Part shown: one piece after another, positions 3,891 to 61,029 of the stretch
Position numbering within the stretch: the first letter of the stretch is position 1
Layout of the letters: every line of letters starts with the position of its first letter
From: Chrysophaeum taylorii
Taxonomy: Eukaryota; Sar; Pelagophyceae; Pelagomonadales; Pelagomonadaceae
Direction of reading: 5' to 3'
Assembly: GCA_029834535.1 (NCBI GenBank)
Contig: JAQMWT010000181.1
Location: forward strand, 25,756 to 89,755
Length of the DNA: 64,000 nucleotides
The notes under the pieces: model-generated
Databases searched by the model: none
The model's input: only the letters and a program-made list of their open reading frames with translations
What the model was told of the DNA's origin: nothing
Translations under genes and position numbers: made by a program

Positions 3891-3933
3891 CTTAAATCAG
3901 GCACCCAGCCTGGCGATGACAAAATTGCCCACA

Positions 3934-7583: not shown

Positions 7584-7784
7584 GGGAAAATCGTCACGTC
7601 AAACGACTTCCACGTCGACGCAGATATGCCTGTTAATCGCAACAAGGAAATTGAGCTCATTAAAATCTGCTCGTACATCAAGGGAGGTATTGGAAAATCG
7701 CCACTTCAAACGACTTCCACGTCGACGCAGATATGCCTGTTAATCGCAACAAGGAAATTGAGCTCATTGAAGCACAGGCACAGT
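7571..7784 (+). repeat. 107-bp tandem duplication in E3 linker
   Basis: Two adjacent copies of a 107-bp unit, each ending near GGAAATTGAGCTCATT, differ by a few bases. The length is not a multiple of three, so the duplication shifts the reading frame after IN. Confidence 0.85.
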
Positions 7785-8485: not shown

Positions 8486-8506
8486 AGAGAAACAGACGCC
8501 GGGCTC

Positions 8507-35337: not shown

Positions 35338-36406
35338 GGAATCTCTTGTTTCAGAAGAAAAGTATCAAACTGAAACATCTGCTCCTGAAGCGTCCCCCAG
35401 TGATGCGGAGCAGAGGGGGACTGCTGATACAGAGAAAATGTTCCACACTTTCCTGTCCATTAAAGATGATGAAATCGATAACATCCCTCAGCCGCTATTG
35501 CAGCACATAAATGCTAAAGCTCAGAATGCTATCGTTCGTCGTCAAGCTCGGGAAACTTCCTCGCACTCTGAGCTCCCCAGTAATCTAAACAATGAAGATA
35601 ATGAAGATGGTACAGATCCCCCTGTGTTGCTACCAAAATTAAATACTGGTTTTACACTCGTCGCTGTGCCTTCCGAACAAACGCAAAGTTTCATGACACA
35701 GTACGTGTTTGGTCAAAGCTCAACACATGCCTGTTATGCAACAATGCTTAAATTGTACAACGAGTACAATTTGCCGCTAATGACTACGCCAGGATATGCT
35801 GACACATGTGCTTCTCAACATGTAATTAACTTTAAACGTTATGCTGATCCTGTCCACGTCGTAAAGCTACCCGAGTCCTTGTCGCCTGCTATCCAGACTG
35901 CTACGGATACGCAGAGAATCACACATGCTATGATTATAAGGACCGTCATTCCCACTCTCCCAAAGCATCCAATTGTGGGATATGTAAAGCTAGACGTTGC
36001 GCTTGTTCTACCCAAGCAAAACGACCATAACGATCCCGATCTACACATCATCAGTATGACTCAATGGGGAGAAGATAAACTTGGTATACATCTTTATGGA
36101 GTTGAATTTAAAGGACCATCGTCTATCCAGAGTATAATTGATGATAATGTCAAGATTACTTTGTTTAGACTCAGTAACCTGTTGCCAACTCTACCAATTT
36201 ACTCGCTACAACAAGCAAAAGCGCGTAAAATGGAACTTCGCTCACTACAGTTCAGACTATGTGCTTTTAATGAACAACGCGAAATGCTCAAACTATACTC
36301 CACCCTCATGGAACGAGTAATTTGCGTCCCATGGCTTAAAACCATCCTGGAGTCAATGCATTCGCAGCTGCCTTACACACGCAAGCATTTCCCACCTCCT
36401 GTATGA
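35291..36406 (+). CDS. Protease region of the E6 pol
   Basis: The frame overlaps the end of gag by 47 nt and is +1 to it. An acidic linker contains DAEQRG on a purine run (35403-35418). The protease motif is YADTCASQHVI with the catalytic Asp at 35801-35803; the canonical Copia form is DSGAS, so the Gly is replaced by Cys. The downstream half (to 36406) includes LDVALVLPKQ and a Lys/Arg-rich helix. The stop TGA at 36404 is in frame with the methyltransferase that follows, so the stop looks like a nonsense change in one PR-MTase polyprotein. Confidence 0.65.
   Translation: MILRPIPYRTLLEADKESLVSEEKYQTETSAPEASPSDAEQRGTADTEKMFHTFLSIKDDEIDNIPQPLLQHINAKAQNAIVRRQARETSSHSELPSNLNNEDNEDGTDPPVLLPKLNTGFTLVAVPSEQTQSFMTQYVFGQSSTHACYATMLKLYNEYNLPLMTTPGYADTCASQHVINFKRYADPVHVVKLPESLSPAIQTATDTQRITHAMIIRTVIPTLPKHPIVGYVKLDVALVLPKQNDHNDPDLHIISMTQWGEDKLGIHLYGVEFKGPSSIQSIIDDNVKITLFRLSNLLPTLPIYSLQQAKARKMELRSLQFRLCAFNEQREMLKLYSTLMERVICVPWLKTILESMHSQLPYTRKHFPPPV
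35323..35337 (+). promoter_or_regulatory. Candidate +1 ribosomal frameshift site at the end of gag
   Basis: Gag frame reads CTT AGA AGC CGA TAA. Slipping CTT to TTA gives the downstream frame L-E-A-D-K-E. The yeast Ty1 element uses CTT AGG C in the same way. Only one copy is available here. Confidence 0.4.
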
Positions 36407-36795
36407 CGCAAGGTTACAACGTGTTTGCTCCATACAGTAACTTCATCTACTAGCCCACGAATACCTACAGTAACTTTACTTTGCTCTGGGATGTCCACTC
36501 CTGCATTCTTAGCTTGCGCTTCTAATGACCTGCAAATCAACATCAACGTTAAAGTTCTTGTTGAGAGCGACGACAATATCACGCACATGCTACGAATACG
36601 TTTTGGTAATTCCATCGAAGTTTTCCCATCCTTACCCAAGTTTTTGACATATCTCCATCGAGCATCGGACGTTGAACGTGCACGATATTACACTGACATA
36701 GTGGAATTGACATCACCATGCACAAATCGCAACATAATCAATGGGAGATCCATTTCCACCTTCGAGCGCGATATGGATGATTCCTTGTTCCCAAG
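36407..36795 (+). pseudogene. N-terminal part of C5-MTase-like domain of E6
   Basis: In the same frame as PR. Motif I-like: PTVTLLCSGMSTPAFL (about 36470), the cofactor-binding loop, then VKVLVESDDN, the acidic strand of motif II. Motif IV: DIVELTSPCTNRN with Cys codon 36719-36721. The residues around the Cys match DIIEITPPCTNRN of E7 almost exactly. The domain is cut at 36795 by the E7 LTR. This is the clearest view of motif I in the A/C type. Confidence 0.7.
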
Positions 36796-37108
36796 TGCAG
36801 AGCATTTAGCAAGCAGTGGTAAGTCACCTGGGAAACCATCCCGTATCATCGTGAGCGTCTGGAAGGTCAATTCGGGGAATGAAAGGTTATGTTCCCTATA
36901 TCATCAGAACACGACAGGCGGCATCTAGCACTACACGAGAAAGGTTAAGTGTATAGTGCAACATACCTCGGGACGCGCTAGACCATGATGATGAGCGTAG
37001 GCACAAATCAGAGGACTATTAGATTGTGTAGAAAGGAAGAAGAAGGGTAAGGAAGAGATCACGTTCTCAACGGACGGATAAGGGTAAGAGGCAGCAGATT
37101 TCTCTGCA
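36796..37108 (-). repeat. 3' LTR of E7
   Basis: 313 bp with ends TGCAGAG and CTCTGCA (an inverted 7-bp terminus containing TG...CA). It is nearly identical to 52086-52400 and 49092-49407. Confidence 0.85.
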
Positions 37109-37118
37109 CCCCCTCGAG
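37109..37118 (-). promoter_or_regulatory. Polypurine tract of E7
   Basis: CTCGAGGGGG stands directly before the LTR in element orientation. Equivalent runs lie at 52401-52410 (E9) and 49082-49091 (E8). Confidence 0.65.
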
Positions 37119-37258
37119 ATGTCTTAAGCGCAAGGTGCGACTGTAGAGCATCTCTTGAGAAAGATGATGATGAAGAAAAAAAAAAGGAAAGGAAGGAGAA
37201 TACAGTCTTGATGGTCGCAGAGGTCACATAAGAGGCATCAAGAGTATAACAGGGTGTC

Positions 37259-39228
37259 TTAGGGCTTGGACTTGGTGGAGCTGAGAGTCGACTTGACGCT
37301 TTTGAACAGAGCATTACGAAACACAGGTACGACAGACAGTGTGTTAAAGCTATCTGAGGTGGTGGACGTTACTGGTTCGAGAGTATCGTCTTCGTCCGCT
37401 TCTGCTGTCAGGCGGTGAACGCCAATAGTATAATGGTGTGGTACCATACGAAACGTGAGTGCAAGTAAAGCATTCAGTAGGGATGGCACTTGTGAGTCAA
37501 GTTGTAGGGTGTCCAGTTGGTTTTCCAAAAAGTTAGACTCAGCGAACGGATCCGAGAGGATAGAAGGGTCTTCAAATTCACATGCGAAGGGAATGCTTTG
37601 AATATACGAGAGCAAATTATCACGCAGACGATGGAGGTGATCGTCCGGGGAGGAATGGTTGGCGGCATATTGGTCATGAGCTGTTAGCGTTAAGCGAGAC
37701 AGTAGCTCTGTGATCTTGAACAGTGTTATAAGCAACACGTGTGCATTGGCTGTAGGAGGAAAGAGCCGGTTTTCCAGGGAGGTAATTGAAGCAATGGCTG
37801 CCTGTAGATCTGTGTGCAGAGATAGATTCTCAGCGCTGAGGGTGTTGACCTTGCGAATATATAGGCGAAGAGTTTCCTGGAGTTGTTCGACTTGTTGACG
37901 CAATGCACCGACATCATCAGGCGAGGCAGAAGGAGCAGGGTGTGTCGATGGCGAAGACATTTCCAGAGTAGATTCTGATGAGGGAAGTGAGTAGTTAAAT
38001 GACATTTCGGTCGACACATGCTGTGCAAGTCGGGGGTATTTCGTGTTTAGGAAGTGCAGAAAGTCTTGACGTTCGGCCGAAGTATAGGTGGGACCGAACA
38101 TTACATCCAAGAGTGATGGCGGCTTTGTATCGTCTGAGGATGATACGTAGTCGTCAAGGTGTTGTACCCACGATTGGATAACAGTATGAATCACATGGTG
38201 GTATTTGGTGGGCTTGAACATAGCCTGAGTTTTACGAGCTTGTGTTCGCTCGAGCGTTACAAGAAAGTTAAGATGCTCCAGGTGCATCTGAGTAATAAGC
38301 CGAAGATCTAGTGCCAATGGTAATTGAGTAGTGGAGTCTGTGGCTGCATCGGTTACTGATAAGCCTAAATGAGCAAGTGACGAATGTTGCCTTAGGTTTC
38401 TGGTCAAGAGAGCATGTAGCTCCTTTGGCAAATGATACGTACGCATGATGGTTGCACGTATATGACCGGCTGAGCGCCCATTGCAGGAAGGTTGGAAGGA
38501 GGTAGCATTACGTGCACATACGTTAGGTTGTATGGGCGCCTGATCGGTGTTGTGACAAGCACAACAAATGTTAGTGGTGATAGTTGAGATGGGGATGTGA
38601 CCATTCTTCTTGTGGTCATCTGTGTTGAGGTGACTCAGCACTTCAGTGGGGAGTTCACTAGGTGCTTGTGACTTCGAATTATATGTGGTAGAAGCAAGAA
38701 ATGTAGGCTGCCCCAAATCGTTGAGGCATTGCGTACAGTAGGATGACAGGATGAAACGTTCACGTTTGGGGCCTCTGTAGCAGCCAATAGAAGTAATAGC
38801 AGGAGCAGCTTCCCAAAATGTAGTAATGGGTAGGCGCATGGATATGAATGTCGTTAGTTCCACAAACAGTAAAGAGTCAGCAGATTCATATATCGAGTTG
38901 AGTGCCGTAGAGATTTCCGCTCGCATAACAGAAGAGAAGGGCGTAGCAGGAATACGGAAGCTCTCAGAAGAGAGTATCCTCGTTCAATCAGGGCAAAATC
39001 CATGTTGAGGCCATCCTGGAGTGTTAGGGATTGTAGTAAAACAGGTTCAGCTGGTGTCGGTGAGACAGTAGCAGCCTGGGAGGTAGTAGGAGTGACAGTG
39101 GTTATGGGTTGTCGCTTTTGCGACAACTTGGGAGAAGGCTCGGCCGTGGAGAGCGAGCGTGGAATTGTCCTTCGAACGACTGGAGAGATGCCACGGCCAC
39201 GGCCACGGGAGTGCCAAGAAAAAGACAT
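37259..39228 (-). pseudogene. 3' ORF of E7 (Zn-ribbon and coiled-coil protein), one frameshift
   Basis: It corresponds along its length to the intact E9 protein at 52559-54535. The first ~100 codons (from ATG 39228) are in one frame and the rest, from 38926, in another, with the shift near 38980. It contains RGRGRG near the N-terminus, the four-part cysteine set, the SLNY-like site as TEMSFNY (37991-38011), a heptad-rich coil and a Ser/Thr-rich end. Function unknown; see E9. Confidence 0.7.
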
Positions 39229-39293
39229 GAGCGACACTCACACGACACGTACAAAAAAATGTGGCAAAAGAAGGTAGGGCCAGGGCTAGTTTG

Positions 39294-39350
39294 CTAGTTT
39301 AACGACGTTGCGGTCACTAGGGTTAGGCATCTTCAATCCTGTAAAGGATT
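39294..39350 (-). other. Pol stop followed by an in-frame SLN motif (E7)
   Basis: RH ends PLQD-TGA. The same frame continues R-C-L-T-L-V-T-A-T-S-L-N and then TAG. E8 shows the same, E9 reads the full SLNY. Confidence 0.6.
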
Positions 39351-41578
39351 GTCGTCAGAGGCATGATGCATACCGAGTAGAGAGCGAAAGGTGGAGAACT
39401 CAGCAGCAAGTGGCTTTGTAAAACCATCCGCCACGTTTAGCTTGCCGGGAACATGATGGACTCGTATTTTCTGTAGCGAGATGTACTCACGGATCTTAAA
39501 CCATCTGGTCGACAGTGCCTTGGATCGAGAGGACCCATCTGGGTTATTAGAGGTGTGAACAGCGGCAGCATTGTCAGAAAAGAGGTAGGCTTCTGATGAA
39601 GCGCATATCTTCAGCAATTGGGTTGTCATTGTCATCGAAGTCAACAGGGTCAGCGGTGTTCTCACCATTAGCATTGTTGACGTAGAAGGTGGGGTTGACG
39701 ACAAAGGAGAGTTCCAACAACAGCTTGCGTAGCCAAACAGCTTCATCAGCACAAATACTGAGGGCAATCAACTCAGCTTCGTGAGTTGAGCAGGAGACAA
39801 TCGGTTGAAGTTTGCTTTTCCAACCAATAAGGCAGTTGAAAAGATAGAAGACAAACCCGGTGGTAGATTTCCTATCTTCCTGTGCTAAGGAAGGGGCATT
39901 GTCAGCGTCAACCATGGCAACTAAGGGGTCAAACTGTCCAGTAGATACATCCTGTGGTTGGTAGTCGACCACAGTGGATAGATCAATTCGATTAGCGGAG
40001 ACAGTGCGAAGGTGAGCTTCAATGGCATTACCTTTAGGGTGAAACCAGAGGCGAAGTGAGCGGTTTTCCGGCTTCTTGAGGTAGCGAAGTAAATGCTCTA
40101 GCATTTGGACGTGAACATATGCGAGTGTGTGCATGCATACCACGCGAACATCTGCCCAAGGCTTGCGAGAAGTCAGGTCTGCAGGCAACTTGCATGAACA
40201 CCAGCTTGCCAAGGAGGGTGGCAAAGTGCGAATTGATGTACAACTCTGTTTCAGTGCTGGGAGTGCCATCTTTATACTTGAAGGACGATGACATAGGATA
40301 TTTAAGCGGGGTCAGTTGCTGCAAGACTGGGTGATCAGCGAAGAGTTCATCCAGCTTGGCTTGCACATCCAGAGAAATGGAGCCGTCAGATGTGCGACAC
40401 ACACGCATGCCTAGGAGGGTATGGACAGGTTCAAACTGCTCTACAGCATACCGTTTGTGGAGGGCATCCTGTAATTCAGTACGAAGAGGGTCGTCATTGG
40501 ACACAATAACAATGTCGTCTACAGACAGACTGCATACGACGAACTTAGCATGTGCGGATACTCGAGCATATAGGCAAGAGTCCGAATGCAGGCGTTTGTA
40601 GCCAAGGCTACGGAAGAAGCCGTCTATCTCTTTGTTCCAAAGGGATGGTGATTGCCGAAGTCCATAAAGTGACTTCAGCAGTTTCGGTAGACGTCGGCCC
40701 TTGTACTTAGCGTCATCGGGGTCGATAAGCTTGATGCCGTCTGGTAACTGAACATAGACATTGGCATCGATGTCAGACTGAACGAAGGCGTTCGGGACGT
40801 CTGCATGGTAGACAGGCAATTGCTTGTATGCTGCAATAGCTAGTAGTACCCGGATTGCGGTCATGGTGGCCATGGGGCTGAAGGTACCAAAGAAATCGGC
40901 GCCAAGAGATGCTAGGAAGCCACGTAGTACGAGGCGAGCCTTGTGCTTAACGTATTTGCCTGCAGAGTCTGTTTTAATCTTCAGCACCATCTTGCTGTCA
41001 ATAGGACGAGAGACACCGTCGGGTAAGGAAAGTTTGAAGCAGCCAAAGCGGATAATGTCGTGGAGTTCCTTGGCGATGGCCTTGAGGTAGGCGTGCCTGT
41101 TTTCAGGCGACAAACCGTGGAGGCACTTAAGTTTATATTCGTCAATGGAAACGTCCGCTTCTTGGACCTTATATTCGTCAGGACCAACAATGGCTGGTGA
41201 ATTATAGTTTAGCGACGTTGCGGTCGAGGCAGTGTGCGCAACTTCGGGATAAGCGGAAACAGCGTCAGTAGGAGTAGTAGGGGCAGATTCCAGTTGGATA
41301 TGGATAGTAGGGTCGGTACGTAAGACCTGGGTGATAAACTCTGTAGAGACCAGAAGGTATTCCTCCAAGTCAGCCAGAGATGCAGAAGTAGCGCCAAACT
41401 CGGATGAGTTGTGATCAATAAAGCTGGTCGGCGCCAGGTACGTAAGTGCATATTGTAAGGAAGAAGTGCCGAAGGCAGCAGCGTGTTCAGTGAACGCAGA
41501 TAAAAGGGGCTGAGGAATAGGGCACGTAGGTGAACCATCAGCAGTTAAAAGGTTGCAGCTGGGATGCTGGATGCGCAC
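39333..41578 (-). pseudogene. Reverse transcriptase - RNase H of E7
   Basis: RT frame 41578-40034 includes MVLKIKTDSAGKY, ARLVLRGFLASLG, ADVPNAFVQSD, LLKSLYGLRQS and the active-site SLSVDDIVIV (about 40515). A frameshift at about 40130 falls after LGRCSRGMHA. RH continues from 40269: MVDADNAPSLAQED (about 39910), STHEAELIAL (39775), then a second shift near 39585, and LSDNAAAVH with KIRVHHVPGK. The first 40 codons of the RT frame still belong to the linker. Upstream a TATSLNY site lies at 41204-41224 and would separate the linker from RT. Confidence 0.8.
41204..41224 (-). other. Putative protease site TATSLNY (linker|RT border, E7)
   Basis: Codons T-A-T-S-L-N-Y precede DEYKVQEADVSIDEYKLKC and the RT. 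E9 has it at 56498-56518; E10 has it with one base lost at 62849. Confidence 0.5.
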
Positions 41579-41599
41579 TTGGCGTGGGCGAAGTAACCA

Positions 41600-43240
41600 T
41601 CGACGTGCGGGTAGCGGGCAAGTAAGTCAGTGCGCAACGGGAGAAGAAGACGAGCTAACAACGCATGTTCCCCTCTGAGCAGATAGCAGACCAGAGGATA
41701 CCACCACGGAGATGAAGGGCGGAGAGGGCGGGAGACTTGAACGTAAGAAAGTGGTGGCGAAGATCCCAGCGGAAATCGGCGAGTTTGCCACCAGCGGCTT
41801 TGTAAGCACCAATAGTAGACGCTTGTAACCGGGCTCGGATAGTTTTCATAGAAGTGGCCTTGCGAGTGTTAGGCTGTTTGGAACCTGGGACAAGAATGAG
41901 GTCATCTTGTGCAAAAAGGTCTTTGTAAGAAGGAAGCAAGGGCGGCGGTGACATAGAGCCAGATTCGTCGGCGATAGCGTCAGAAGAGGGAGAAGAGGCC
42001 GGAGTAGGGGACGAAGAAGGAGGAGCTGAAGGAGGTGGGGAGTGCCCCATCTGAGGATGAGGAGTCCTTGTCCCCTCTGAATGACATGGTCTTGGATAGT
42101 GGTGTGGGGTGTGAGCGAGAAAGGCGCGGAAGGAGCGTGTGGCGGAGGAGCTAGTTCAGGATCAGGAGTAGGATGCTGCAACATGTAGAGGAATTGCAGC
42201 TTGGACGAAACACGAATTTGTCCGTTTTCAGGGTTGAGGACGACGTCAGCGAGATGGTCGACGCGTGGGGAGACGAGCGGGTTTTGTGCGTTGGCGCAAC
42301 AGAGATACAGATATTTGCGGCGGCACGGTTCCCACTTGTGGTGTTCATGGGGCTCCAATAGGAGGTAACATTCAGCGCCAAAAATCTTGAGCATATCGTG
42401 TTGGGGAGTGCTGAGTTGGTTGTAGAGTAGCTGTTGCGGACTCAGAATAGCATGATGAATGCGCTCGAGCGTGGCGTTCGGGAGAAGGTTATAGCTTTGA
42501 ACGGTGTGTATCACCGCCCATGGGAACATGATGGCGGGTTCCACGATCTTGGCGCCACGATAGTGAGCATTAAGGAGAGAACGAAGGCGAGTTGAGGAGG
42601 CGGAGGCGATGAAACCGATGGCAGACTCAACTTCAAAGTTAAAGTGGTGCATGTACGGCGGGAAGGCAATGAGTTGAATGCCCTTATCGACGCGGTACGG
42701 GGAGGTAATGTGCTGGCTAAAGTAAGGCTTGAATGCATCGGAGTAGAGGGTGCGCATGTGCACATTGAGTTGTGTACGACAGAAGTCATACACAAAATCC
42801 AGAGCTTGAGTGAACTCCGTGGCGTTGGTGGTGCGTGTAAAGTACACCAAGAGAAATTTCGAAATGAGTTCCTTGAAGACGATGATATGTGTGAAGCCTC
42901 CCCATTCGGATGGGATGGTCACATAGCCGCCGTCGCACGCCCAGACTTCACCGGCTTTGTGGGTTTGCTCAAAGGGGCTTGGTCGCATTGAAATGCTTGT
43001 GCGGGTGGCGCTTGTTGTGTGCGATGCAGTCGGTGCATAAGTCGCGATATGGTATGTCAGAAGCAGAGAATCCAGGGCGAGCAAGTACGTTGGGGGCCTT
43101 GGCAGCGACGTTGTCGGGGCAGTGATGCACCCGGTGAAAGCGATTAGCACGTTCTTTGGCATTGAGATATTCGGTGGATCCGTGTGCGAGAGACTTACGA
43201 GGAATGGGATGAGCGGGAATGTGCCGTTTGCGCCGAACAT
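41600..43240 (-). pseudogene. Integrase core and linker of E7
   Basis: After a small deletion near 42970 the frame runs through the IN core: EVWACDGGYVTIPSEWGGF (about 42925), LYSDAFKPYFSQ (42745) and NFEVESAIGF (42620), giving D-D-E. ECYLLLEPHEHHKWEP and ADVVLNPENGQ form the C-terminal part. At the paired purine runs (about 42090) the frame shifts; the linker then reads MGHSPPPSAPP, LLPSYKDLFAQDDL and TIGAYKAAGGKLADFRWDL (42050-41655). IN joins cDNA ends to target DNA. Confidence 0.78.
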
Positions 43241-45137
43241 CGAACTTGAGTTCGGTGTCTAAGGCAGGGGGGGGCGGTGCGTCGTCATCCTGGTGCGCAG
43301 CAGGGTCACTTGGAGGTGCATCCTCATCATCACGAGTAGCGAGAGTATCTTCGTAGGACGAAGATATATAGTTTAACGACATTTCGGTCAAGCAGTTGCT
43401 GGAAATAGACATCATAAAAGATTGTGCCAAAGACAAGGTATCTGTGCTGCACGTGGTGGAAGCTTGGTCAACGGTCATGAGATTGGACACATAGGATTCT
43501 TCGTCATGGCAGCAGTATGTTGGAAGGTAGGGTCCAACATAATGGGATTTAATATCGGCGACGATGAGCAAAAGGTGCTTGTACAGAGCGCTGTACGTAC
43601 CGGCAGGCAGAGCATTGCTGAGCATGTCACAGCAAAGGTCATGGCGTAGAGACAAGAGGAAAGACTCCTGTTGTTTGGTGTGGTTGTTAGCACGAATCAA
43701 CTCCGGTCGAGTGGGGTAGCGTAATTTCCCGTTGCGAGGGTCGAGTAAAATAATATTGGCATACCCTCGGACGGTTGGCAATGGAGCAAGCATTGAGTGG
43801 ATTTTAGAGCCGAGTTTGCGGTCACTTCCACGAAGGTACCCTATATAGCGACTATGAGATAAGTGGTGATCTTCCAGAGCAAAAAGAGAATCCTTGTAAT
43901 CGAAAGAGTTGTCGGTGGCCTTGTAGGTAAGGCAGCCAGGCATCACGAGAGCGCATCTGGACACGAGGTTTTGTATGGCGGTGCCATAGGTGGTAGCGGA
44001 GCCAACTTGGGGAAGGGCTTGGACTATCCACAAGTAACCCATAAACGGCTCCATATATATGGACCTGTCCCGGTCGCGGGGGATGTCGGAAGCAGTGAAC
44101 GTATACGTGCTTCCGAAGGCGTCGATGGGAGTTGGATTTTTGGTGGTGGCGTTCTCTATGGTGAGGTTGCCGTCGGAATGGTGGCCACCAGTTAAGAAGT
44201 AAGAGTTGTGTGATGTTGATGAGGTTGTAAGTAATAACCTGTGTGACGGTTGGTTAGTTTCGAAAACGGTTATGTAATAGGACACAGGAGTGGGTGAGTT
44301 AGTATGTAAGCTTGCGAACACGTTATAGAGGATTGTAAAAATCTTGACGTGTATAGGATGTGTTGCATTGGGTAATGGCTCCATAGAGGAGCGTTTAAAG
44401 CACAACTGATGGTAAGTACACTCGGGTTGAACAGAGTGAGTACGTTGCTCGTGAGCCTGTTGTGAGTGAAGGCGAAGTAGTAACATATTGAGGGATTCAA
44501 GGTCAGCCATAGTAAGCTGAGCAGAACCTGTGCGAGAGTAAGGTGCAAACGTTTTAGGAATGGACATGTATGGAGGATCAGGGAACACCCGGATCCAGTC
44601 TTTGGTTAGGTGGTTAGGTAGCCAAAGGCGCTTGGGGATAGCTTGCAGATCATCCACGATCTTTAGGAAGGGGCGTGGATGGAGGATGGGCCACGATGAT
44701 AGTTTAATTGGTCCAGTAGAATATCTGCGGGCGACGCATATCCACCTTTCTCTAGATTGGTAGTCGCCACATAGGTAGGTCGGGAACCTATCAACAACAT
44801 CGACACAGTAATCAAGGGTAGTATAGATAAGGTTGGCCACTGTGATGTGGTCTTGATGACAGTACTTATGCGGAGGCGTCATCTCAACCAGTAGTACCAA
44901 GGGCTGGAGTAGCTTGATGACAGACAGCATGCTGTCGAAAAGAGAATCGTCCAGCAGACTGTGTAAGTCTTCTGACTTTTGTTGTTTTAGTAAATTCCTG
45001 TTTGTGCAGGGAGGAGTGATCTCGATTATATCACAATAGAATGAGCGCCTTTCCTCGGGTGAGATTAGGTGAAGATGGTTGATAAAGGCGGGGAGAGATT
45101 CAAATAATAGTACAGTAGGAAAACGGTGGCGTAACAT
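42969..45137 (-). CDS. C5-cytosine methyltransferase-like domain and IN zinc region of E7
   Basis: A 722-codon frame, open at its 5' end. Motif IV: DIIEITPPCTNRN with Cys44 (45006-45008). Motif VI position: LLVEMTPP (84-86, Glu kept). Motif VIII: CGDYQSRERWICVARR (123-138), very close to the Q-S-R-x-R of known C5-MTases. A region of ~330 residues that could be the target-recognition domain includes IDAFGSTYTFTASD and HHLSHSRYIGYLRGSDRKLG. Then LRYPTRPELIRA (motif IX position) and LSNALPAGTYSALYKHLL (motif X, about 43590-43625). TEMSLNY (43368-43388) ends the domain. The final part is the IN zinc region (HRVHHCPDN, CTDCIAHNK). The family methylates cytosine C5 using S-adenosylmethionine; activity here is untested. 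Confidence 0.78.
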   Translation of the reverse strand: MLRHRFPTVLLFESLPAFINHLHLISPEERRSFYCDIIEITPPCTNRNLLKQQKSEDLHSLLDDSLFDSMLSVIKLLQPLVLLVEMTPPHKYCHQDHITVANLIYTTLDYCVDVVDRFPTYLCGDYQSRERWICVARRYSTGPIKLSSWPILHPRPFLKIVDDLQAIPKRLWLPNHLTKDWIRVFPDPPYMSIPKTFAPYSRTGSAQLTMADLESLNMLLLRLHSQQAHEQRTHSVQPECTYHQLCFKRSSMEPLPNATHPIHVKIFTILYNVFASLHTNSPTPVSYYITVFETNQPSHRLLLTTSSTSHNSYFLTGGHHSDGNLTIENATTKNPTPIDAFGSTYTFTASDIPRDRDRSIYMEPFMGYLWIVQALPQVGSATTYGTAIQNLVSRCALVMPGCLTYKATDNSFDYKDSLFALEDHHLSHSRYIGYLRGSDRKLGSKIHSMLAPLPTVRGYANIILLDPRNGKLRYPTRPELIRANNHTKQQESFLLSLRHDLCCDMLSNALPAGTYSALYKHLLLIVADIKSHYVGPYLPTYCCHDEESYVSNLMTVDQASTTCSTDTLSLAQSFMMSISSNCLTEMSLNYISSSYEDTLATRDDEDAPPSDPAAHQDDDAPPPPALDTELKFDVRRKRHIPAHPIPRKSLAHGSTEYLNAKERANRFHRVHHCPDNVAAKAPNVLARPGFSASDIPYRDLCTDCIAHNKRHPHKHFNATKPL
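43368..43388 (-). other. Putative protease site TEMSLNY (MTase|IN border, E7)
   Basis: The site lies between motif X of the MTase and the Asp-rich linker before IN. E9 (58663-58683) and E10 (60776-60796) have it at the same place. Confidence 0.5.
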
Positions 45138-45164
45138 ACGAACAAGCGTATCGATTTAGGGTAA

Positions 45165-46190: not shown

Positions 46191-47288
46191 GAACCTGTCC
46201 ATACCCTCCTAGGCATGCGCGTGTGTCGCACATCTGACGGTTCCATTTCTCTGGATGTGCAAGCCAAGCTGGATGAACTCTTCGCTGATCACCCAGTCTT
46301 GCAGCAACTGACCCCGCTTAAATATCCTATGTCATCGTCCTTCAAGTACAAAGATGGCGCTCCCAACTCTGAAACAGAGTTGTACATAAATTCGCACTTT
46401 GCCACCCTCCTTGGCAAGCTGGTGTTCATGCAAGTTGCCTGCGGACCTGACTTCTCGCAAGCCTTGGGCAGATGTTCGCGTGGTATGCATGCACCCACGT
46501 ATGTTCACGTCCAAATGCGAGAGCATTTGCTTCGCTACCTCTAGAAGCCGTAAAACCGCTTACTTCGCCTCTGGTTCCATCATAAAGGTAATGCCATTGA
46601 AGCTCACCTTCGCACTGTCTCCGCTAATCGAATTGATCTATCCACTGTGGTCGACTACCAACCGCAGGATGTATCTACTGGACAGTTTGATCCCTTAGTT
46701 GCCATGGTTGACGCTGACAATGCCCCTTCCTTAGCACAGGAAGATAGGAAATCTACCACCGGGTTTGTCTTCTATCTTTTCAACTGCCTTATTGGTTGGA
46801 AAAGCAAACTTCAACCGATTGTCTCCTGCTCAACTCACGAAGCTGAGTTGATTGCCCTCAGTATTTGTGCTGATGAAGCTGTTTGGCTACGCAAGCTGCT
46901 GTTGGAACTCTCCTTTGTCGTCAACCCCACCTTCTACGTCAACAATGCTAATGGTGAGAACACCGCTGATCCTGTTGACTTCGATGACAATGACAACCCA
47001 ATTGCTGAAGATATGCGCTTCATCAGAAGCCTACCTCTCTTGTCTGACAATGCTGCCGCTGTTCACACCTCTAATAACCCAGATGGGTCTTCTCGATCCA
47101 AGGCACTGTCGACCAGATGGTTTAAAATCCGTGAGTACATCTCGCTACAGAAAATACGAGTCCATCATGTTCCCGGCAAGCTGAACGTGGCGGATGGTTT
47201 TACAAAGCCACTTGCTGCTGAGTTCTCCACTTTTCGTTCTCTACTCGGTATGCATCATGCCTCTGACGACAAGCCTTTACAGGATTGA
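46191..47288 (+). pseudogene. RT end and RNase H of E8
   Basis: The RT part (46215-46544) ends at a TAG after LLRYL. Two frameshifts later RH is open from 46647 to 47288 with MVDADNAPSLAQED, STHEAELIAL, LSDNAAAVH and KIRVHHVPGKLNVADGF, so all three catalytic acids are present. It ends PLQD-TGA (47286-47288). Confidence 0.75.
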
Positions 47289-47306
47289 AGATGCCTAACT
47301 CTAGTG

Positions 47307-48960
47307 ACCGCAACGTCGTTAAACTAGCCCTGGCCTTACCTTCTTTTGCCACAAATTTTTGTACGCGTGCGAGTGTTGCTCGTGTCTTTTCTTGGCACTC
47401 CCGTGGCCGCGGCATCTCCCTAGTCGGTTGAAGGACAGTCCTTTCTCGCTCTCCACGGCCGAACCTTCCCCCAGGTTGTCGCAAAAGCAACGAACCATGA
47501 CTGCTACTACTGCTACCACACTGGCTGCTGCGGTTGCACCGACACCAGCCGTGCATATCTCACCTCAGTCGCTGACGTTCCAGGGCGGCCTCAGTATTGA
47601 CTATGCTGCTTACGAGCGAGGAATCTCTCTCCGTGAGAACTTCCGTGTCCCTGTCACCCCATTTGTCTCTTATTTTATGCGAGTGGAACTCACACTGCCC
47701 TATGAGTCTACTGACTTTTCATTGTTTGTAGACCTGACCACATTCATATCCATGCGCTTACCCATTACTATACTTTGGGAAGCTGCTCCTGCTATTGCTT
47801 CTATTGGCTGCTACAGAGGCCCCAAACGCGAACGTTTCATTTTGTCGCTTTCCTTTTTGTACGCAGTGCCTCAATGATCGTGGACAACCGACTTTCCTAG
47901 TCTCGACCACGTACAGTTCCAAGGCACAAACACCTCGTGAACTCCCCACTGAAGTGCTGAGTCACCTCAACACGGACGACCATAAGAAGAATGGTCACAT
48001 CCCCATTTCTGCTATTACCACGAACATTTGCTGCGCTTGTCACAACACCGATCAGTTTACTTGTGACTCTTGTTCGAACACAGAGTCGCACAGCTCAGGC
48101 TATGCAAGCCATCCATTCAGCATTTGATTACTACTGTTGCTCGATCGCGTGTACAACATCTTGACGACTACGCATCATCCTCTGATGATACAGAACCGCT
48201 ATCACTCCGGGATGTAATGTTCGGCCACACTTATACTCAGGCAGAACATTAAGACTTCCTGCGCCCCCTTTTTTTTAACGTTGACCGAAACGTCGTTAAA
48301 CTACTCACACTCCACGCTAGACGCTACTCTGGAGATATCTTCGCCATCGTTACCTACGTCTTCTGCTTCGCTTGCTGATTTCGACGTCTTGTGCCAACAA
48401 GTCGACCAACTCCAGGAAACTCTTCGAATATATATTACCGAGGCTGCCATTGCTTCATCACCTCCCTGGAGAACCGGCTCTTCCCTCCTACAGCCAACAC
48501 CCACGTGTTACTTATAACACTGTACACGATCACAGAGCTGTGGTCTCGCTTAACACTCACCGCTCATGACCAACATGCTGCCAACCACTCCTCCCCGGAC
48601 GATCACCTCCTTCATCTACGTGACAAGTTGCTCTCATGCTTCAGAGCATTCCGTCCGCTCTCATGTGAATCTGAAGACTCTTCTATCTTCGTTCGCCAAG
48701 TCAAACTTTTTGGAAAACCAACTGGACACCTTTAACTAGATTCTCTGTCGCCATCCATACTGAATGCTCTACTTGCACTCACCCTTCTCTTGGCACCACA
48801 TCATTCAGCTATTGGTGTTCACCACCTTACAGCAGAAGCTGACGATGATTGATAATCCTAACACACGGTCTGTTGTATCTGTGTTTCTTAATGTTCTGTT
48901 CTAAAGGGTCAAATCGACTCTCAGCTCCACCAAGTCCAAGTCCTAAGCCTCTTCTATACT
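47307..48960 (+). pseudogene. 3' ORF of E8, deleted and frameshifted
   Basis: After the RH stop the same frame reads TATSLN then TAG (47307-47327) and stays open to the equivalent of the 3' ORF start near 47380. The N-terminal domain (to about 47870) has one frame. The first CxxC (CTQC, 47862) and second (CCACHNTDQ, about 48035) remain, then a deletion removes about 120 residues. TETSLNY lies at 48284-48304, followed by a shortened coil. It shows that the 3' ORF is a general part of lineage A. Confidence 0.65.
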
Positions 48961-49091
48961 CTTGATGCTTCGTATGTGACCTCTGCGACCATCAAGACTG
49001 TATTCTCCTTTTTTTTTTTTTTTCCTTCATCATCATCTTTCTCAAGAGATGTTCTATAGACGCACCTTGCGCTTAAGACATCTCGAGGGGG

Positions 49092-49407
49092 TGCAGAGAA
49101 ATCTGCTGCCTCTTACCCTTATCCGTCCGTTGAGAACGTGATCTCTTCCTTACCCTTATTCTTCCTTTCTACACAATCAAATAGTCCTTTGATTTGTGCT
49201 CACGCTCATCATCTCGGTCTAGTGCGCCCCGAGGTATGTAGCACTATACACTTTACCTTCCTCGTGTAGTTCTAGATGCCGCCTGTCGTGTTCTGAGGAT
49301 ATAGGGAACATACCTTTTCATTCCCCGAATTAAATACTTCCAGACGTTCATGATGAGACGGGATGGTTTCCCAGGTGACTTACCACTGCTTGCTAAATGC
49401 TCTGCAG
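49092..49407 (+). repeat. 3' LTR of E8
   Basis: 316 bp, TGCAGAG...CTCTGCA, preceded by the polypurine run CTCGAGGGGG (49082-49091). It is the inverted counterpart of 36796-37108 and 52086-52400. Confidence 0.85.
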
Positions 49408-51019: not shown

Positions 51020-52085
51020 GACTTGACGAACCAGGCGAGCACACGACCAGAATCATCTCCTAGACATGTCTATAAAGGGACTCCATAGGTACACTCTCTG
51101 TCGAAAATATCTGCGAGTACGCAAATTCATAAACCAAAAACTCGCTGTCTAAGAGCAACGCCTTACTCGACACTTTCAATTCGACATGCTGCGCATGAAC
51201 CGCGACTTCATGTAATATACGCACCGAAATTGTATTCGAAGTCGCAAAGACCACCATAGTACATTTTTTGTATAGGAGTTACACGATATTTACTTATTAA
51301 TTATTTTCTTGTAATAATCCATGACTTATCGTGCCCGAACTATTCACAAACTCAAGCCTAATCTTATTGCGAGCTCGTTTGAACACGGCCCGTAACGGGC
51401 CCGCGGAGTACTTACTGCCCGTCGTAAAAAAGAAATCCTGCTCCATTTCAACGGATTCTCGTGGACATAAGTTATGCAAGCATCGCAGGATCACAGTGAG
51501 TTCCGCGCTTTGGACGGTTTCCGAGACACAGATCGTGCAGAGGCAGCGCGGGTGCACGCTGGGAGTGTTCCGTGCCTTTGACGGTTGCCGAGACTTTCTG
51601 ACTTTTTGGCGGCAGTGCGGTTCGGGCATGATACATGGCTCAATGTCGCTTGAAAGAAAGAGTTCCGCAATTTCCGAGACAGTTCACTGCGAGGACCCAG
51701 CGCGGTTCGGGCACACGGTAGCTCGGGAGATCGTCGAGGAACTTCGAGTGGAAGAGGCGCGGTTTGGACACCCATTTGTAAGTTTGCGGACAGTTACTCA
51801 TATGGAGCGAATTAGTAATGGTTTAGCAGTGACGCAACCCATATAGACGGCGCGACGTCGGACGCGGCCGGCTGTATTGCAAGCGGCATATTTTCCCGTT
51901 GTCTTTTCGGCTCGAGCTTGGGTATTCGGTGCACCGCGCCGGATGGCGGTCACAGCGGGGATGTTGGCCGTGACGTCCAGATGGATCAGGATCACGGGCC
52001 AGGTCAAATACATATGATGAGGCACAGAAATCTCTAATCGACGATGCTGCTCATAACTTACATGCCGCTATGTCTGATGCACAGG
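51020..52085 (+). other. Unassigned region with a 171-codon frame
   Basis: The first ~230 bp may continue the lineage C 3' ORF. From 51331 (GTG) to 51846 a frame encodes a protein with loosely repeated segments (VSETQIVQRQRG, then ISETVHCEDPARFGH and EEARFGH); the DNA has matching imperfect ~110-bp repeats around TTTCCGAGAC and GCGCGGTTCGGGCA. No ATG start is near and no family is recognised. 51847-52085 shows nothing clear. Confidence 0.35.
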
Positions 52086-52400
52086 TGCAGAGCATTTAGC
52101 AAGCAGTGGTAAGTCACCTGGGAAACCATCCCGTCTCATCATGAGCGTCTGGAAGTATTTAATTCGGGGAATGGAAAGGTATGTTCCCTATATCCTCAGA
52201 ACACGACAGGCGGCATCTAGAACTACACGAGAAAGGTAAAGTGTATAGTGCTACATACCTCGGGACGCGCTAGACCATGATGATGAGCGTATGCACAAAT
52301 CAGAGGACTATTTGGTTGTGTAGAAAGGAAGAAGAATGGTAAGGAAGAGATCACGTTCTCAACGGACGGATAAGGGTAAGAGGCAGCAGATTTCTCTGCA
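52086..52400 (-). repeat. 3' LTR of E9
   Basis: 315 bp with TGCAGAG...CTCTGCA ends, followed on the inner side by the purine run CTCGAGGGGG (52401-52410, complement). Confidence 0.85.
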
Positions 52401-52558
52401 CCCCCTCGAGATGTCTTAAGCGCAAGGTGCGACTATAGAGCATCTCTTGAGAAAGATGATGATGAAGAAAAAAAAGAAGGAAAGAAAGGAGAATACAGTC
52501 TTGATGGTCGCAGAGGTCACATAAGAAGCATCAAGAGTATAGCAGGGTGTCTTAGGGC

Positions 52559-54535
52559 TTAGGACTTGGACTTGGTGGAGCTGAGAGTCGACTTGACGCT
52601 TTTGAACAGAGCATTACGAAACACAGGTACGACAGACAGTGTGTTAAGGCTATCTGAGGTGGTGGACATCGTTACTGGTTCGAGAGTATCGGTATCGTCT
52701 TCGTCAGCTTCTGTTGTCAGGTGGTGAACACCAATAGCAGAATGGTGTGGTACCATACGAAACATGAGTGCAAGTAAAGCACTCAGTATGGATGGCACCA
52801 GCGAGTCAAGTTGTAGGGTGTCCAGTTGGTTTTCCAAGAAGTTGGACTCAGCGAACGGATCCGAGAAGATAGAAGAGTCTTCCGATTCACATGCGAAGGG
52901 AATGCTTTGAATACACGAGAGCAACATATCACGCAGATGATGGCGGTGATCGTCCGGGGAGGAATGGTTGGCGGCATATTGGTCATGAGCTGTAAGAGTT
53001 AAGCGAGACAGCAGCTCTGTGATCTTGTACAGTGTTATGAGTAACACGTGTGCATTGGCTGTAGGAGGAAAGAGCCGGTTCTCCAGGGAGGTGATTGAAG
53101 CAATGGCAGCCTGCAGATCTGTGCGCAGAGATAGATTCTCAGCGCTGAGGGTGTTGACCTTGCGGATATGTAGGCGAAGAGTTTCCTGGAGTTGCTCGAC
53201 TTGTTGACTCAAGGCATCGTCATCATCAGGCGAGGCAGAAGGAGCAGGGTGTGTCGATGGCGAAGACATTTCCAGAGTAAGCTCTGATGTGGAGAGTGAG
53301 TAGTTTAACGACGCTTCGGTCAACACATGCTGTGCAAGTAGGGGGTTTTTCGCGTTTAGAAAGTGCAGAAAGTCTTGATGTTCTGCCGGAGTATAAGTGG
53401 GGCCGAACATTACATCCAGGAGTGATGGCGGCTTTGTATCATCTGAGGATGATACGTAGTCGTCAAGATGTTGTGCCCACGATTGGGCAACAGTATTAAT
53501 TACATGGTGGGATTTGGAGGGCTTGAACATAGCCTGGGCTTTGCGAGCCTGCGTTCGAACAAGAGTTACAAGAAAGTTAAGATGCTCAAGGTGCATCTGA
53601 GTAATAAGCCGAAGATCCAGTGCGAATGGCAGTTGAGTGGTGGAATCTGTGGCTGCATCGGGTACCGATAAGATTAAATGAGCAAGTGACGGATATTGCG
53701 TTAGATTGCTAGTCAAAAGAGTATGTAGCTCCTTTGGCAAATGATAGGTGCGTATGATGGTTGCGCGTATATGACCAGCTGAGCACGCATCACAGGAGGA
53801 TTGGAAGGAAGTAGCATTGCGGGCACATACAGTAGGTTGTATAGGCACCTGATCGGTGTTGTGACAAGCGCAGCAAATGTTCATGGTAATAGTCGAGATG
53901 GGGATGTGACCATTCTTCTTATGGTCGTCCGTGTTGAGGTGACTCAGCACTTCAGTGGGGAGTTCACGAGGTGCTTGTGACTTCGAACTGTATGTGGTAG
54001 AGGTAAGGAAGGTAGGTTGTCCCAAATTGTTGAGGCATTGCGTACAGTAGGATGACAAAATGAAACGTTCACGTTTGGGGCCTCTGTAGCAGCCAATAGA
54101 AGCAATAGCAGGAGCAGCTTCCCAATATATAGTAATGGGTAGGCGCATGGATATGAATGTTGTTAGTTCCACAAACAGTGAAAGATCAGTAGACTGATAG
54201 ACTGAGTTGAATGCCGTAGAGATTTCCGCTCGCATAAAAGAAGAGAGAAAGGGGGTGGCAGGGACACGGAAGTTCTCAGAGAGAGAGATTCCTCGTTCAA
54301 ACAGGGGAAAATCCATGTTGAGGCCATCCTGGAGTGTTAGGGATTGATGTAAGATATGTTCAGCTGGTGTCGGTGCGACAGCAGCAGCCTGGGAGGTAGC
54401 AGGAGTAACAGTGGTCATGGGTTGTCGCTTTTGCGACGACTTGGGAGAAGGCTCGGCCGTGGAAAGCGAGCGTGGAATTGTCCTTCGAACGACTGGAGAG
54501 ATGCCGCGGCCACGGGAGTGCCAAGAAAAAGACAT
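52559..54535 (-). CDS. 3' ORF of E9: Zn-ribbon-like, coiled-coil protein of unknown function
   Basis: An intact 658-residue frame starts at ATG 54535 (a GTG three codons earlier is in frame). Layout: RGRG near residue 9 and a basic Ser/Thr/Pro-rich start; a domain with C164-x2-C167, C221-x2-C224, C237 and C248-x2-C251, which could bind zinc; a mostly helical part; TEASLNY (53300-53320), which would split the protein; a heptad coil (QQVEQLQETLRLHIRKVNTL, then LSAENLSLRTDLQAAI); and a Ser/Thr-rich tail. No signal peptide or membrane segment is seen, so it is not envelope-like. Since the gag lacks a zinc knuckle, this protein could supply nucleic-acid binding in the particle; that is conjecture. 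Confidence 0.72.
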   Translation of the reverse strand: MSFSWHSRGRGISPVVRRTIPRSLSTAEPSPKSSQKRQPMTTVTPATSQAAAVAPTPAEHILHQSLTLQDGLNMDFPLFERGISLSENFRVPATPFLSSFMRAEISTAFNSVYQSTDLSLFVELTTFISMRLPITIYWEAAPAIASIGCYRGPKRERFILSSYCTQCLNNLGQPTFLTSTTYSSKSQAPRELPTEVLSHLNTDDHKKNGHIPISTITMNICCACHNTDQVPIQPTVCARNATSFQSSCDACSAGHIRATIIRTYHLPKELHTLLTSNLTQYPSLAHLILSVPDAATDSTTQLPFALDLRLITQMHLEHLNFLVTLVRTQARKAQAMFKPSKSHHVINTVAQSWAQHLDDYVSSSDDTKPPSLLDVMFGPTYTPAEHQDFLHFLNAKNPLLAQHVLTEASLNYSLSTSELTLEMSSPSTHPAPSASPDDDDALSQQVEQLQETLRLHIRKVNTLSAENLSLRTDLQAAIASITSLENRLFPPTANAHVLLITLYKITELLSRLTLTAHDQYAANHSSPDDHRHHLRDMLLSCIQSIPFACESEDSSIFSDPFAESNFLENQLDTLQLDSLVPSILSALLALMFRMVPHHSAIGVHHLTTEADEDDTDTLEPVTMSTTSDSLNTLSVVPVFRNALFKSVKSTLSSTKSKS

Positions 54536-54595
54536 GAGCGACACTCACACGCGCACAACAAATTGTGGCAAAAGAAGGTAGGCCAGGGCTAGGGG

Positions 54596-54637
54596 ATAGT
54601 TTAACGACGTTGCAGTCACTAGGATTAGGCATCTTCA
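54596..54637 (-). other. Pol stop, in-frame SLNY site and lead into the 3' ORF (E9)
   Basis: RH ends PLHY-TGA (54635). The same frame then reads R-C-L-I-L-V-T-A-T-S-L-N-Y-P and stays open for 30 codons to a second TGA, three codons before the 3' ORF ATG, again in the same frame. This fits an arrangement in which pol and 3' ORF were once, or sometimes are, one polyprotein. Confidence 0.55.
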
Positions 54638-56395
54638 ATAATGTAAAGGCTTGTCGTCAGAGGCATGATGCATACCGAGTAGAGAACAAAAAGTGGAGAA
54701 TTCAGCAGCAAGTGGCATTGTAAAACCATCCGCCGCATTTAGCTTGCCGAGAACATGATGGACTCGTATTTTCTGTAGCGAGATGTACTCACGGATCTTA
54801 AACCATCTGGTCGACAGTGCCTTGGATCGAGAAGACCCATCTGGGTTATTAGAGGTGTGAACAGCGGCGGCATTGTCAGACAAGAGAGGTTGGCTTCTGA
54901 TGAAGCGCATATCTTCAGCAATTGGGTTGACATTGTCATCGAAGTCAACAGGATCAGCGGTGTTCTCACCATTAGCCTTGTTGACGTAGGTGGGGTTGAC
55001 GACAAAGGAGAGTTCCAACAGCCGCTTGCGTAGCCAAACAGCTTCATCAGCACAAATACTGAGGGCAATCAACTCAGCTTCGTGAGTTGAGCAGGAGACA
55101 ATCGGTTGAAGTTTGCTTTTCCAACCAATAAGGCAGTTGAAAAGATAGAAGACAAATCCGGTGGTAGATTTCCTATCTTCCTGTGCTAAGGAAGGGGCGT
55201 TGTCAGCGTCGACCATGGCAACTAAGGGATCAAACTGTCCAGTAGATACATCCTGCGGTTGGTAGTCGACCACAGTGGATAGATCAATTCGATTAGCGGA
55301 GACAGTGCGAAGGTGAGCTTCAATAGCATTACCTTTAGGATGGAACCAGAGGCGAAGTGAGCGGTTTTCCGGCTTCTTGAGGTAGCGAAGCAAATGCTCT
55401 AGCATTTGGACGTGAACATACGTAGGTGCATGCATACCACGCGAACATCTGCCCAAGGCTTGCGAGAAGTCAGGTCTGCAGGCCACTTGCATGAACACCA
55501 GCTTGCCAAGGAGGGTGGCAAAGTGCGAATTGATGTACAACTCTGTTTCAGAGCTGGGAGTGCCATCTTTATACTTGAAGGACGATGACTTAGGATATTT
55601 AAGCGGGGTCAGTTGCTGCAAGACAGGGTGATCAGCGAAGAGTTCATCCAGCTTGGCTTGCACATCCAGAGAAATGGAACCGTCAGATGTGCGACACACA
55701 CGCATACCTAGGAGGGTATGGACGGGTTCAAACTGCTCTACAGCATACCGTTTGTGGAGGGCATCCTGTAACTCAGTACGAAGAGGGTCGTCATTGGACA
55801 CAATAACAATGTCGTCTACAGACAGACTGCATACGACGAACTTAGCATGTGCGGATACTCGAGCATATAGGCAAGAGTCCGAATGCAGGCGTTTGTAGCC
55901 AAGGCTACGGAAGAAGCCGTCTATCTCTTTGTTCCAAAGAGATGGTGATTGCCGATGTCCATAAAGTGACTTCGGCAGTTTCGGTAGACGTCGGCCCTTG
56001 TACTTAGCGTCATCGGGGTCGATAAGCTTGATGCCGTCTGGTAACTGAACATAGACGTTGGCATCAATGTCAGACTGAACGAAGGCGTTCGGGACGTCTG
56101 CATGGTAGACAGGCAATTGCTTGTATGCTGCAATAGCTAGTAGTACCCGGATTGCGGTCATTGTGGCCATGGGGCTGAAGGTGCCAAAGAAATCGGCGCC
56201 AAGAGATGCTAGGAAGCCACGTAGCACGAGGCGAGCCTTGTGCTTGACGTATTTGCCTGCAGAGTCTGTTTTAATCTTCAGCACCATCCTGCTGTCAATA
56301 GGACGAGAGACACCGTCGGGTAAGGAAAGTTTGAAGCAGCCAAAGCGGATAATGTCGTGGAGTTCCTTGGCGATGGCCTTGAGGTAGGCGTGCCT
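54635..56395 (-). CDS. Reverse transcriptase - RNase H of E9
   Basis: One frame covers RT and RH without a stop (550 codons from MVLKIKTDSAGKY at 56287; the frame is open back to about 56395). Active-site residues: ADVPNAFVQSD, SLSVDDIVIV (about 55805) and, for RH, MVDADNAPSLAQED (55205), STHEAELIAL (55075) and LSDNAAAVH (54880). KIRVHHVLGKLNAADGF lies near the end. Small changes from E7 (LPKSLYGHRQS for LLKSLYGLRQS) may impair it. This is the most complete RT-RH in the window. Confidence 0.85.
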   Translation of the reverse strand, partial: RHAYLKAIAKELHDIIRFGCFKLSLPDGVSRPIDSRMVLKIKTDSAGKYVKHKARLVLRGFLASLGADFFGTFSPMATMTAIRVLLAIAAYKQLPVYHADVPNAFVQSDIDANVYVQLPDGIKLIDPDDAKYKGRRLPKLPKSLYGHRQSPSLWNKEIDGFFRSLGYKRLHSDSCLYARVSAHAKFVVCSLSVDDIVIVSNDDPLRTELQDALHKRYAVEQFEPVHTLLGMRVCRTSDGSISLDVQAKLDELFADHPVLQQLTPLKYPKSSSFKYKDGTPSSETELYINSHFATLLGKLVFMQVACRPDFSQALGRCSRGMHAPTYVHVQMLEHLLRYLKKPENRSLRLWFHPKGNAIEAHLRTVSANRIDLSTVVDYQPQDVSTGQFDPLVAMVDADNAPSLAQEDRKSTTGFVFYLFNCLIGWKSKLQPIVSCSTHEAELIALSICADEAVWLRKRLLELSFVVNPTYVNKANGENTADPVDFDDNVNPIAEDMRFIRSQPLLSDNAAAVHTSNNPDGSSRSKALSTRWFKIREYISLQKIRVHHVLGKLNAADGFTMPLAAEFSTFCSLLGMHHASDDKPLHY

Positions 56396-56449
56396 GTTTC
56401 AGGCGACATACCGTGGTGGCACTTGAGTTTATATTCGTAAATGGAAACG

Positions 56450-58426: not shown

Positions 58427-58554
58427 CCGGTGAAAGCGATTGGCACGTTCTTTGGCATTGAGATATTCGGTGGATCCGTGTGCGAGGGACTTACGAGGAA
58501 TGGGATGAGCGGGAATATGACGTTTGCGCCGAACATCGAACTTGAGTTCGGTGT

Positions 58555-59789: not shown

Positions 59790-59799
59790 CACAGGTTCT

Positions 59800-60796: not shown

Positions 60797-61029
60797 ATAT
60801 CTTCGTCCTACGAAGATACTCCTACTCGTGATGAGGAGGATGCACCTCCCGCTCATTCCCATCTCCTCGTAAGTCCTCGCACACGGATCCACCGAATCAT
60901 CTCAATGCCAAAGAACGTGCTAATCGCTTTCACCGGGTGCATCACTGCCCCGACAACGTCGCCGCCAAGGCCCCCAACGTACTTGCTCGCCCTGGATACT
61001 TCTGCTTGACATACCATATCGCGACTATG

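Follow-up and report, generated by a model that had tools for sequence, protein, structure and literature searches.

Copia retrotransposons with a domain related to C5-cytosine methyltransferases in the pelagophyte Chrysophaeum taylorii

The window considered here is a stretch of 64,000 nucleotides from the pelagophyte Chrysophaeum taylorii (contig JAQMWT010000181.1, positions 25,756 to 89,755 of the forward strand), which contains Copia retrotransposons of three families, termed A, B and C. On its reverse strand lies an open reading frame (ORF) of 728 codons from stop to stop, referred to below as the window ORF, which belongs to a family C element designated E7 and is followed by regions for integrase, reverse transcriptase and an RNase H-like product and by a long terminal repeat (LTR) (Table 1). 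A preliminary description of this DNA proposed that the window ORF encodes a C5-cytosine DNA methyltransferase, and that three diverged lineages have retained this domain in the same polyprotein slot, between protease and integrase.

Relation of the domain to C5-methyltransferases

Every motif string named in that description is present, and those of the window ORF, which correspond to motifs IV, VI, VIII and X, follow one another in the order given. A motif IX-like segment that had gone unnamed consists of PTVRG (43778-43764) and RPELIRANN (43709-43683), both on the reverse strand. Motif I, however, is absent: the ORF starts with 'IDTLVRML', and intact relatives are about 50 residues longer, with 'VMLLCSGLSTPAFL'. 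The window ORF thus displays the expected motif series from IV onward, but in a broken copy, and the identity of the domain comes from copies elsewhere in the genome.

The genome searched comprises 70.8 Mb in 697 contigs; the published assembly has 71 Mbp in 702 contigs, and the main text of its report contains no word beginning with 'transpos' or 'copia' (PMC10366177). A scan with the C5-methyltransferase model PF00145 gave 57 matches among the 123 of 474 candidates that were scored. Twenty of these were examined individually, the other 37 being outside all per-locus counts given here. Two of the 20 are host-type genes, one DNMT2-like (CTAYLR_008533, 100% identical) and one DNMT5-like; the DNMT5-like ORF (L010, 4168-9900, forward strand) combines C5-methyltransferase and SNF2 domains and has 'TSC' at the position expected for PPC.

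Each of the remaining 18 (L011-L028) contains the domain in its family A form, with a protease-like stretch upstream and, on the same strand downstream, integrase in 14 and reverse transcriptase in 10 of the 18. In L025, the longest open copy among them, to which the main matches of the others are 64-98% identical, a pol ORF of 1952 residues contains PF00145 at 349-475 (E 1.1e-7), above the curated cut-off, followed by rve at 1016-1110 (E 0.006, under its cut-off) and RVT_2 at 1686-1933. PF00145 scores of family A span E 1.1e-7 to 5e-9. Its motifs include LPC and ENV, each in 9 of 9 rows, and a motif VIII that reads SKTR in place of QxRxR. Motif I, IIAGG, is collinear but departs from the FxGxGG consensus, and profile comparison places it at 'TAIIAGGLHQEGF', about 14 residues after TAVLSVFTQ. 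The latter string (4695, forward strand), which occurs in the window element E3 (~2750-10534, forward strand), a frame-shifted member of family A, had been taken for part of the cofactor loop and is probably not; TVTLLCSGMST (36467, forward strand), assigned the same role in the family B element E6, does fall within motif I. Because family A exceeds the PF00145 cut-off, it settles the identity of the domain, which the window ORF alone cannot, and the family A domain is almost certainly a homologue of C5-methyltransferases.

Families B and C have motifs I, IV, VI, VIII, IX and X in common. The motif IV cysteine is kept in 8 of 8 rows, one of which has RC instead of PC, and the motif VI glutamate, QxRER and the motif X sequence NA(I/L)PAG are likewise invariant in all eight. 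Motif VI reads EMT in B, C and P0121, a transcript protein, and ENV in A; motif I, CSG(M/L)ST, is collinear but again off the FxGxGG consensus. About 320 residues separate motifs VIII and IX, and the segment from motif IX to X was aligned by hhalign to DNMT2-like proteins. None of the PF00145 matches to B and C is over the cut-off (1 of 8 members matches at E 0.035, and 1 of 5 pieces at E 0.004). What ties these families to A is the collinear motif order, the profile comparison, and P0121 as an intermediate. P0121 is 41-42% identical to B and C (41%, E 2.6e-65, against the window ORF), keeps PPC, EMT and QARER, and lies just under the PF00145 cut-off (E 4.4e-4; 20.2 bits against 22). In each of three hhalign comparisons, covering the retrotransposon domains with one another and with DNMT2-like proteins, none of 60 column shuffles reached the observed score; family C alone against A gave E 0.2. 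On this sequence evidence, the B and C domains are very probably C5-methyltransferase homologues as well. Two results count against this identification: the reversed profile approached the real hhalign score in one of the three comparisons, and the window ORF, for which a PF00145 match had been anticipated, matches 0 Pfam families at E ≤ 1. The window's methyltransferase-integrase stretch, read with stops as X, has no Pfam match either.

Further searches contributed little. The PDB sequence search with A2 matched M.HhaI chains alone (E 0.21-0.49), and with A1 and A3 it matched unrelated chains only (E 1.1 and 1.3). IMG/VR scans with A3 and A2 gave 72 and 109 pattern matches and no relative, and a protein database search with residues 240-940 of the family A pol found 0 relatives among 7989 scored candidates. 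AF2 models of A1 and A2 had pLDDT values of only 29.2 and 28.0, too low for fold comparison. A reading of the stretch from motif VIII to X as a TET/JBP-like dioxygenase, raised by an HxD in A, was rejected: two pieces had no Pfam match at E ≤ 10, and no HxD was seen at that place in B and C.

Element structure, abundance and inheritance

The architecture of these elements is best seen in a family C copy of ~11.9 kb (C42), which is arranged as LTR, Gag/protease-like ORF, TGA, methyltransferase, integrase, reverse transcriptase, RNase H-like region and LTR. Its LTRs match over 317 bp at 92.7% identity and have TGCAGAG...CTCTGCA ends; 'GGTTATGGGCCC' follows the 5′ LTR, a GAGGGGG run precedes the 3′ LTR, and the flanks read GATAA and GATAG (4 of 5 positions equal). 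The copy thus appears to possess the LTRs, primer-binding site, polypurine tract and target-site duplication that characterize Ty1/Copia elements, and its primer-binding site presumably resembles the half-tRNA-iMet site of Drosophila copia; this likeness suggested the tRNA primer as a target of the domain, an idea that was set aside. About 2 kb lie between its RNase H-like stretch and 3′ LTR (L038, 1671-3618). Assignment to Ty1/Copia is also borne out by RVT_2, which scores well over its cut-off and has integrase upstream; rve is rightly placed ahead of the reverse transcriptase, yet stays under its own cut-off wherever it is matched.

The pol ORFs of A, B and C all carry the methyltransferase domain in the same slot upstream of integrase, as had been proposed. 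On its other side is a protease-like region, recognized by its place and by the motif D(G/T/S)(G/C)A(S/T), which occurs in six of the eight frames examined; Pfam gave no relevant match in eight pieces of the Gag/protease-like and RNase H-like stretches. In families B and C, the preceding ORF is in the same frame as pol, and a conserved in-frame TGA separates the two at all eight junctions that could be read (window 36404-36406, L029 and L031-L036). The next base is C in seven of the eight; L029 and L033 have additional stops farther upstream. This TGA is a candidate site of programmed readthrough in Copia. In family A, pol overlaps gag in the -1 frame (2100-3833/3797-9652 in L025; 2714-3805/3730-7098 in L020), which suggests expression by frameshift instead of readthrough.

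Copia elements with the domain have reached high copy number. Family C accounts for 61 loci among the matches listed, and at least 150 loci are listed for family B. Among the best 150 of 1670 RVT_2 candidates, at least 47 are preceded on the same strand, at a distance of 1.5-7 kb, by a methyltransferase match (26 for B, 21 for C and 0 for A), compared with 1 on the wrong side and 2 on the wrong strand in control counts; the other 103 have none among the matches listed.

The ratio of nonsynonymous to synonymous divergence (dN/dS), estimated by the Nei-Gojobori method, shows that the domain is under purifying selection. In family B, motifs I-VIII of L033 against three copies gave 0.04, 0.04 and 0.06 at dS 0.86-1.0, near the value for integrase (0.02; 0.12 for the spacer at 600-760), and in family C, L032 against four copies gave 0.07-0.09 at dS 0.41-0.61. 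Comparison of L025 and L020 in family A yielded 0.12 for the methyltransferase at dS 0.84, 0.09 for the protease-like part, and 0.30 for integrase, the region in which the ORF of one copy is cut short. Close copies mostly give higher ratios (L029 against three C copies, 0.18-0.31; L034-L036, 0.29; L025-L022, 0.20; but L034-L035, 0.07), as is expected where changes from post-insertion decay are counted too. These values agree with the preliminary view of the domain as a retained component, and selection of this kind in diverged and abundant families implies that it matters for transposition.

Domain and pol seem to have shared a line of descent since before the split of families B and C, given that their divergence is equal in methyltransferase (58.8% identity) and integrase (58.2%). 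Family A is 18.6-20.5% identical to B or C in the methyltransferase and 24.9-26.8% in integrase, and the domain was probably already present when A separated from them.

Possible functions and precedents

In families B and C, Pol follows an in-frame UGA and starts with the domain, which would therefore be made in a minor readthrough product. It could be that it is carried into the particle, released by protease, and there methylates the cDNA during its synthesis, ahead of insertion by integrase, such that each new copy would arrive already methylated. Conceivably, this could shield the cDNA from cytosine deaminases or nucleases; alternatively, methylation could silence the insertion and lower its cost to the host. 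The position of the domain at the start of Pol, ahead of integrase, favors action on cDNA within the particle, and cDNA has been thought a likely target for DIRS elements (de Mendoza et al., 2018; PMC5890265). On balance, we lean slightly toward a domain that is catalytic and acts on the element's own cDNA.

CpG composition does not strengthen this proposal. The elements have an observed-to-expected CpG ratio of 0.87-1.06, and four stretches within or around two host genes have 1.22-1.51; as evidence of self-methylation, CpG depletion was set aside for want of a clear signal. Of 19 pairs of copies, 18 have more transitions at CG than at GC (0.9- to 2.0-fold, in pairs that share copies and are non-independent), an excess compatible with some methylation, whether by the elements themselves or by the host DNMT5.

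The domain might instead be non-catalytic, retained as a nucleic-acid-binding or structural module of Pol. Motif I and ENV depart from consensus and families B and C stay under the Pfam cut-off, as such a module would allow, but we regard it as unlikely in view of the conserved residues: LPC and ENV never vary in A, the invariant positions of B and C include both the motif IV cysteine and the motif VI glutamate, and PPC, EMT and QARER persist in P0121 despite its divergence.

It is rather unlikely that the domain methylates RNA at C5 instead of DNA, with either the genomic RNA or the tRNA primer as its target, although DNMT2 and DNMT6 have been linked to RNA (PMC12344493), RNA methylation has been raised for the LINE type (de Mendoza et al., 2018; PMC5890265), and the elements show a weak CpG signal. 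The host DNMT2-like protein shows no special kinship to A, B, C or P0121 (pairwise Z -1.1 to 0.8). In addition, the roughly 320 residues that separate motifs VIII and IX in B and C are like the large target-recognition regions that occur in some DNA methyltransferases.

Methylation mainly of host DNA in trans, with changes to host chromatin rather than to the element's own cDNA, is quite improbable. The many B and C copies would suit it, as would the small number of host-type genes among the PF00145 matches examined, but the host-gene stretches are CpG-rich and thus unlike a genome under long-standing, genome-wide methylation. That the motifs are a chance resemblance in a long polyprotein that encodes no methyltransferase is scarcely credible: the window ORF alone lacks a Pfam match and the AF2 models are poor, but family A is over a curated cut-off, and P0121 and the profile comparisons link B and C to it.

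Methyltransferases have been described in LINE, DIRS and Gypsy retroelements (de Mendoza et al., 2018; PMC5890265), and the elements reported here, with RVT_2 and the Copia order, fall outside these classes. According to the same source, KnitGypsy-Dnmt3 of Klebsormidium nitens likewise has a C5-methyltransferase inside the Pol of an LTR element under purifying selection; it is, however, a Gypsy element of a charophyte with a Dnmt3-class domain, whereas here the domain is diverged and the host is a pelagophyte stramenopile. SymbioDIRS-Dnmt3 and SymbioLINE-Dnmt of Symbiodinium are similarly numerous and under purifying selection, and SymbioDIRS domains were shown to perform de novo CG methylation in yeast, but these are DIRS and LINE elements, and the Copia elements of Symbiodinium are reported there to be without any such domain. 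A 2025 paper names 'LTR Copia and DIRS' as DNMT3 carriers (PMC12344493), crediting the 2018 report on streptophytes and dinoflagellates, which describes Gypsy, DIRS and LINE elements; the main text of the 2025 paper has no word beginning with 'pelagophy', and a Copia precedent in its supplement is possible. Among stramenopiles, the accounts of the Copia-like CoDi elements of diatoms make no mention of a methyltransferase domain in the portions concerned (PMC9998398, PMC3145265). Sola1-1_Ec32 of Ectocarpus (PMC12477816) is a stramenopile transposon with a DNA methyltransferase, but it is transposase-bearing and has the enzyme, of N4-cytosine or N6-adenine type and with a ParB domain, in a separate gene. 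In the open-licence literature of PMC, outside which lie most subscription journals and all preprints, no report of methyltransferase-bearing Copia elements in pelagophytes was found, and so the capture appears, as far as found, to be new in both element class and host group.

Retroelements with cytosine methyltransferases thus come to include Copia, and their hosts a photosynthetic stramenopile; more such elements may be hidden, as the domain is so diverged that the PF00145 model misses two of the three lineages here. Given strong selection in abundant families, the reason why a genomic parasite would methylate itself becomes testable in a host whose genome has been published with long-read data (PMC10366177). 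Carriage of a C5-methyltransferase could even be the ancestral and dominant Copia state in this genome; if the host genes are DNMT2- and DNMT5-like only, the elements may supply de novo methylation, with every insertion methylated on arrival and maintained so by DNMT5, a scenario we consider doubtful.

The E7 locus and neighboring copies

The window ORF is a 5′-truncated, decaying copy. Its missing 5′ end and its dN/dS in the motif IX-X part (0.92 against L029, 0.29 against L032) mark E7 as a dying element, and a stretch after residue 587 that looks frame-disturbed helps to raise these values. Upstream of 45155 (reverse strand), gag, protease and motif I are replaced by unrelated sequence that is shared with L030 (C117, ~1089-1290), a hint that a shortened derivative may have multiplied.

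Table 1. Positions of methyltransferase-bearing Copia elements and their parts in the window
Feature	Position	Strand	Evidence
Family A protease-like region (E3)	3997-4532	+	Motif and place only
Family A methyltransferase region, frame-shifted copy (E3)	4653-5549	+	64.8% to L025, E 2e-122
Family A integrase region (E3)	6606-7783	+	87%
Family A reverse transcriptase region (E3)	8726-9757	+	86%
Family B Gag/protease-like ORF (part), ADTCAS motif	35666-36403	+	96% to L035; no Pfam match
In-frame TGA between family B Gag/protease-like ORF and methyltransferase-integrase-reverse transcriptase ORF	36404-36406	+	Sequence read
N-terminal portion of family B methyltransferase, including motifs I (36467-36499) and IV, interrupted by E7	36407-36799	+	88% to L033
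3′ LTR of E7, TGCAGAG...CTCTGCA ends	36796-37108	-	93% to LTR of C42 copy
RNase H-like region of E7	39336-39921	-	97% to L038:3618-4205(-); 'DAD...RKSTTG...' by eye
Reverse transcriptase of E7	40034-41578	-	RVT_2 E 1.9e-42
Integrase ORF of E7, frame differs from methyltransferase ORF	41846-43258	-	rve E 0.002, SH3_retrovirus 9.2e-5, both under cut-offs; 96-98% to L029
Family C (E7) methyltransferase region, motifs IV-X, and start of integrase region, 5′-truncated (window ORF)	42969-45155	-	91.7% to open L029 pol, residues 53-640
Motif X, SNALP	43605-43619	-	Motif alignment
Motif IX region, PTVRG ... RPELIRANN	43683-43778	-	B/C counterpart aligned by hhalign to DNMT2-like 'RYFSPREIANLLGF'
Motif VIII, QSRER (QxRER)	44745-44759	-	Motif alignment
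Motif VI equivalent, EMTPP (EMT replaces ENV)	44871-44885	-	Motif alignment
Motif IV, PPC/PPCTN, catalytic Cys	45000-45014	-	Cys invariant in 8/8 rows of alignment A3
Second family C copy (E8), C-terminal methyltransferase part, broken frames	58684-59490	-	63% identity

At its other end, the E7 LTR abuts base 36796 inside the family B methyltransferase domain on the opposite strand (36791-36800), so that one methyltransferase-bearing Copia has inserted into the methyltransferase of another. Four family C copies or pieces lie between 36796 and 64000 of the window (36796-45155, reverse; 46191-49406, forward; 52082-59790, reverse; 59789-63995, forward). The junction at 59789/59790 is palindromic, and the region also includes a 7.7-kb direct repeat of 94.6% identity. 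Elsewhere, at 20283-20513 on the forward strand, a fragment in decayed context matches the methyltransferase of family A at 40% identity (E 4.5e-7) and possibly represents a further lineage.

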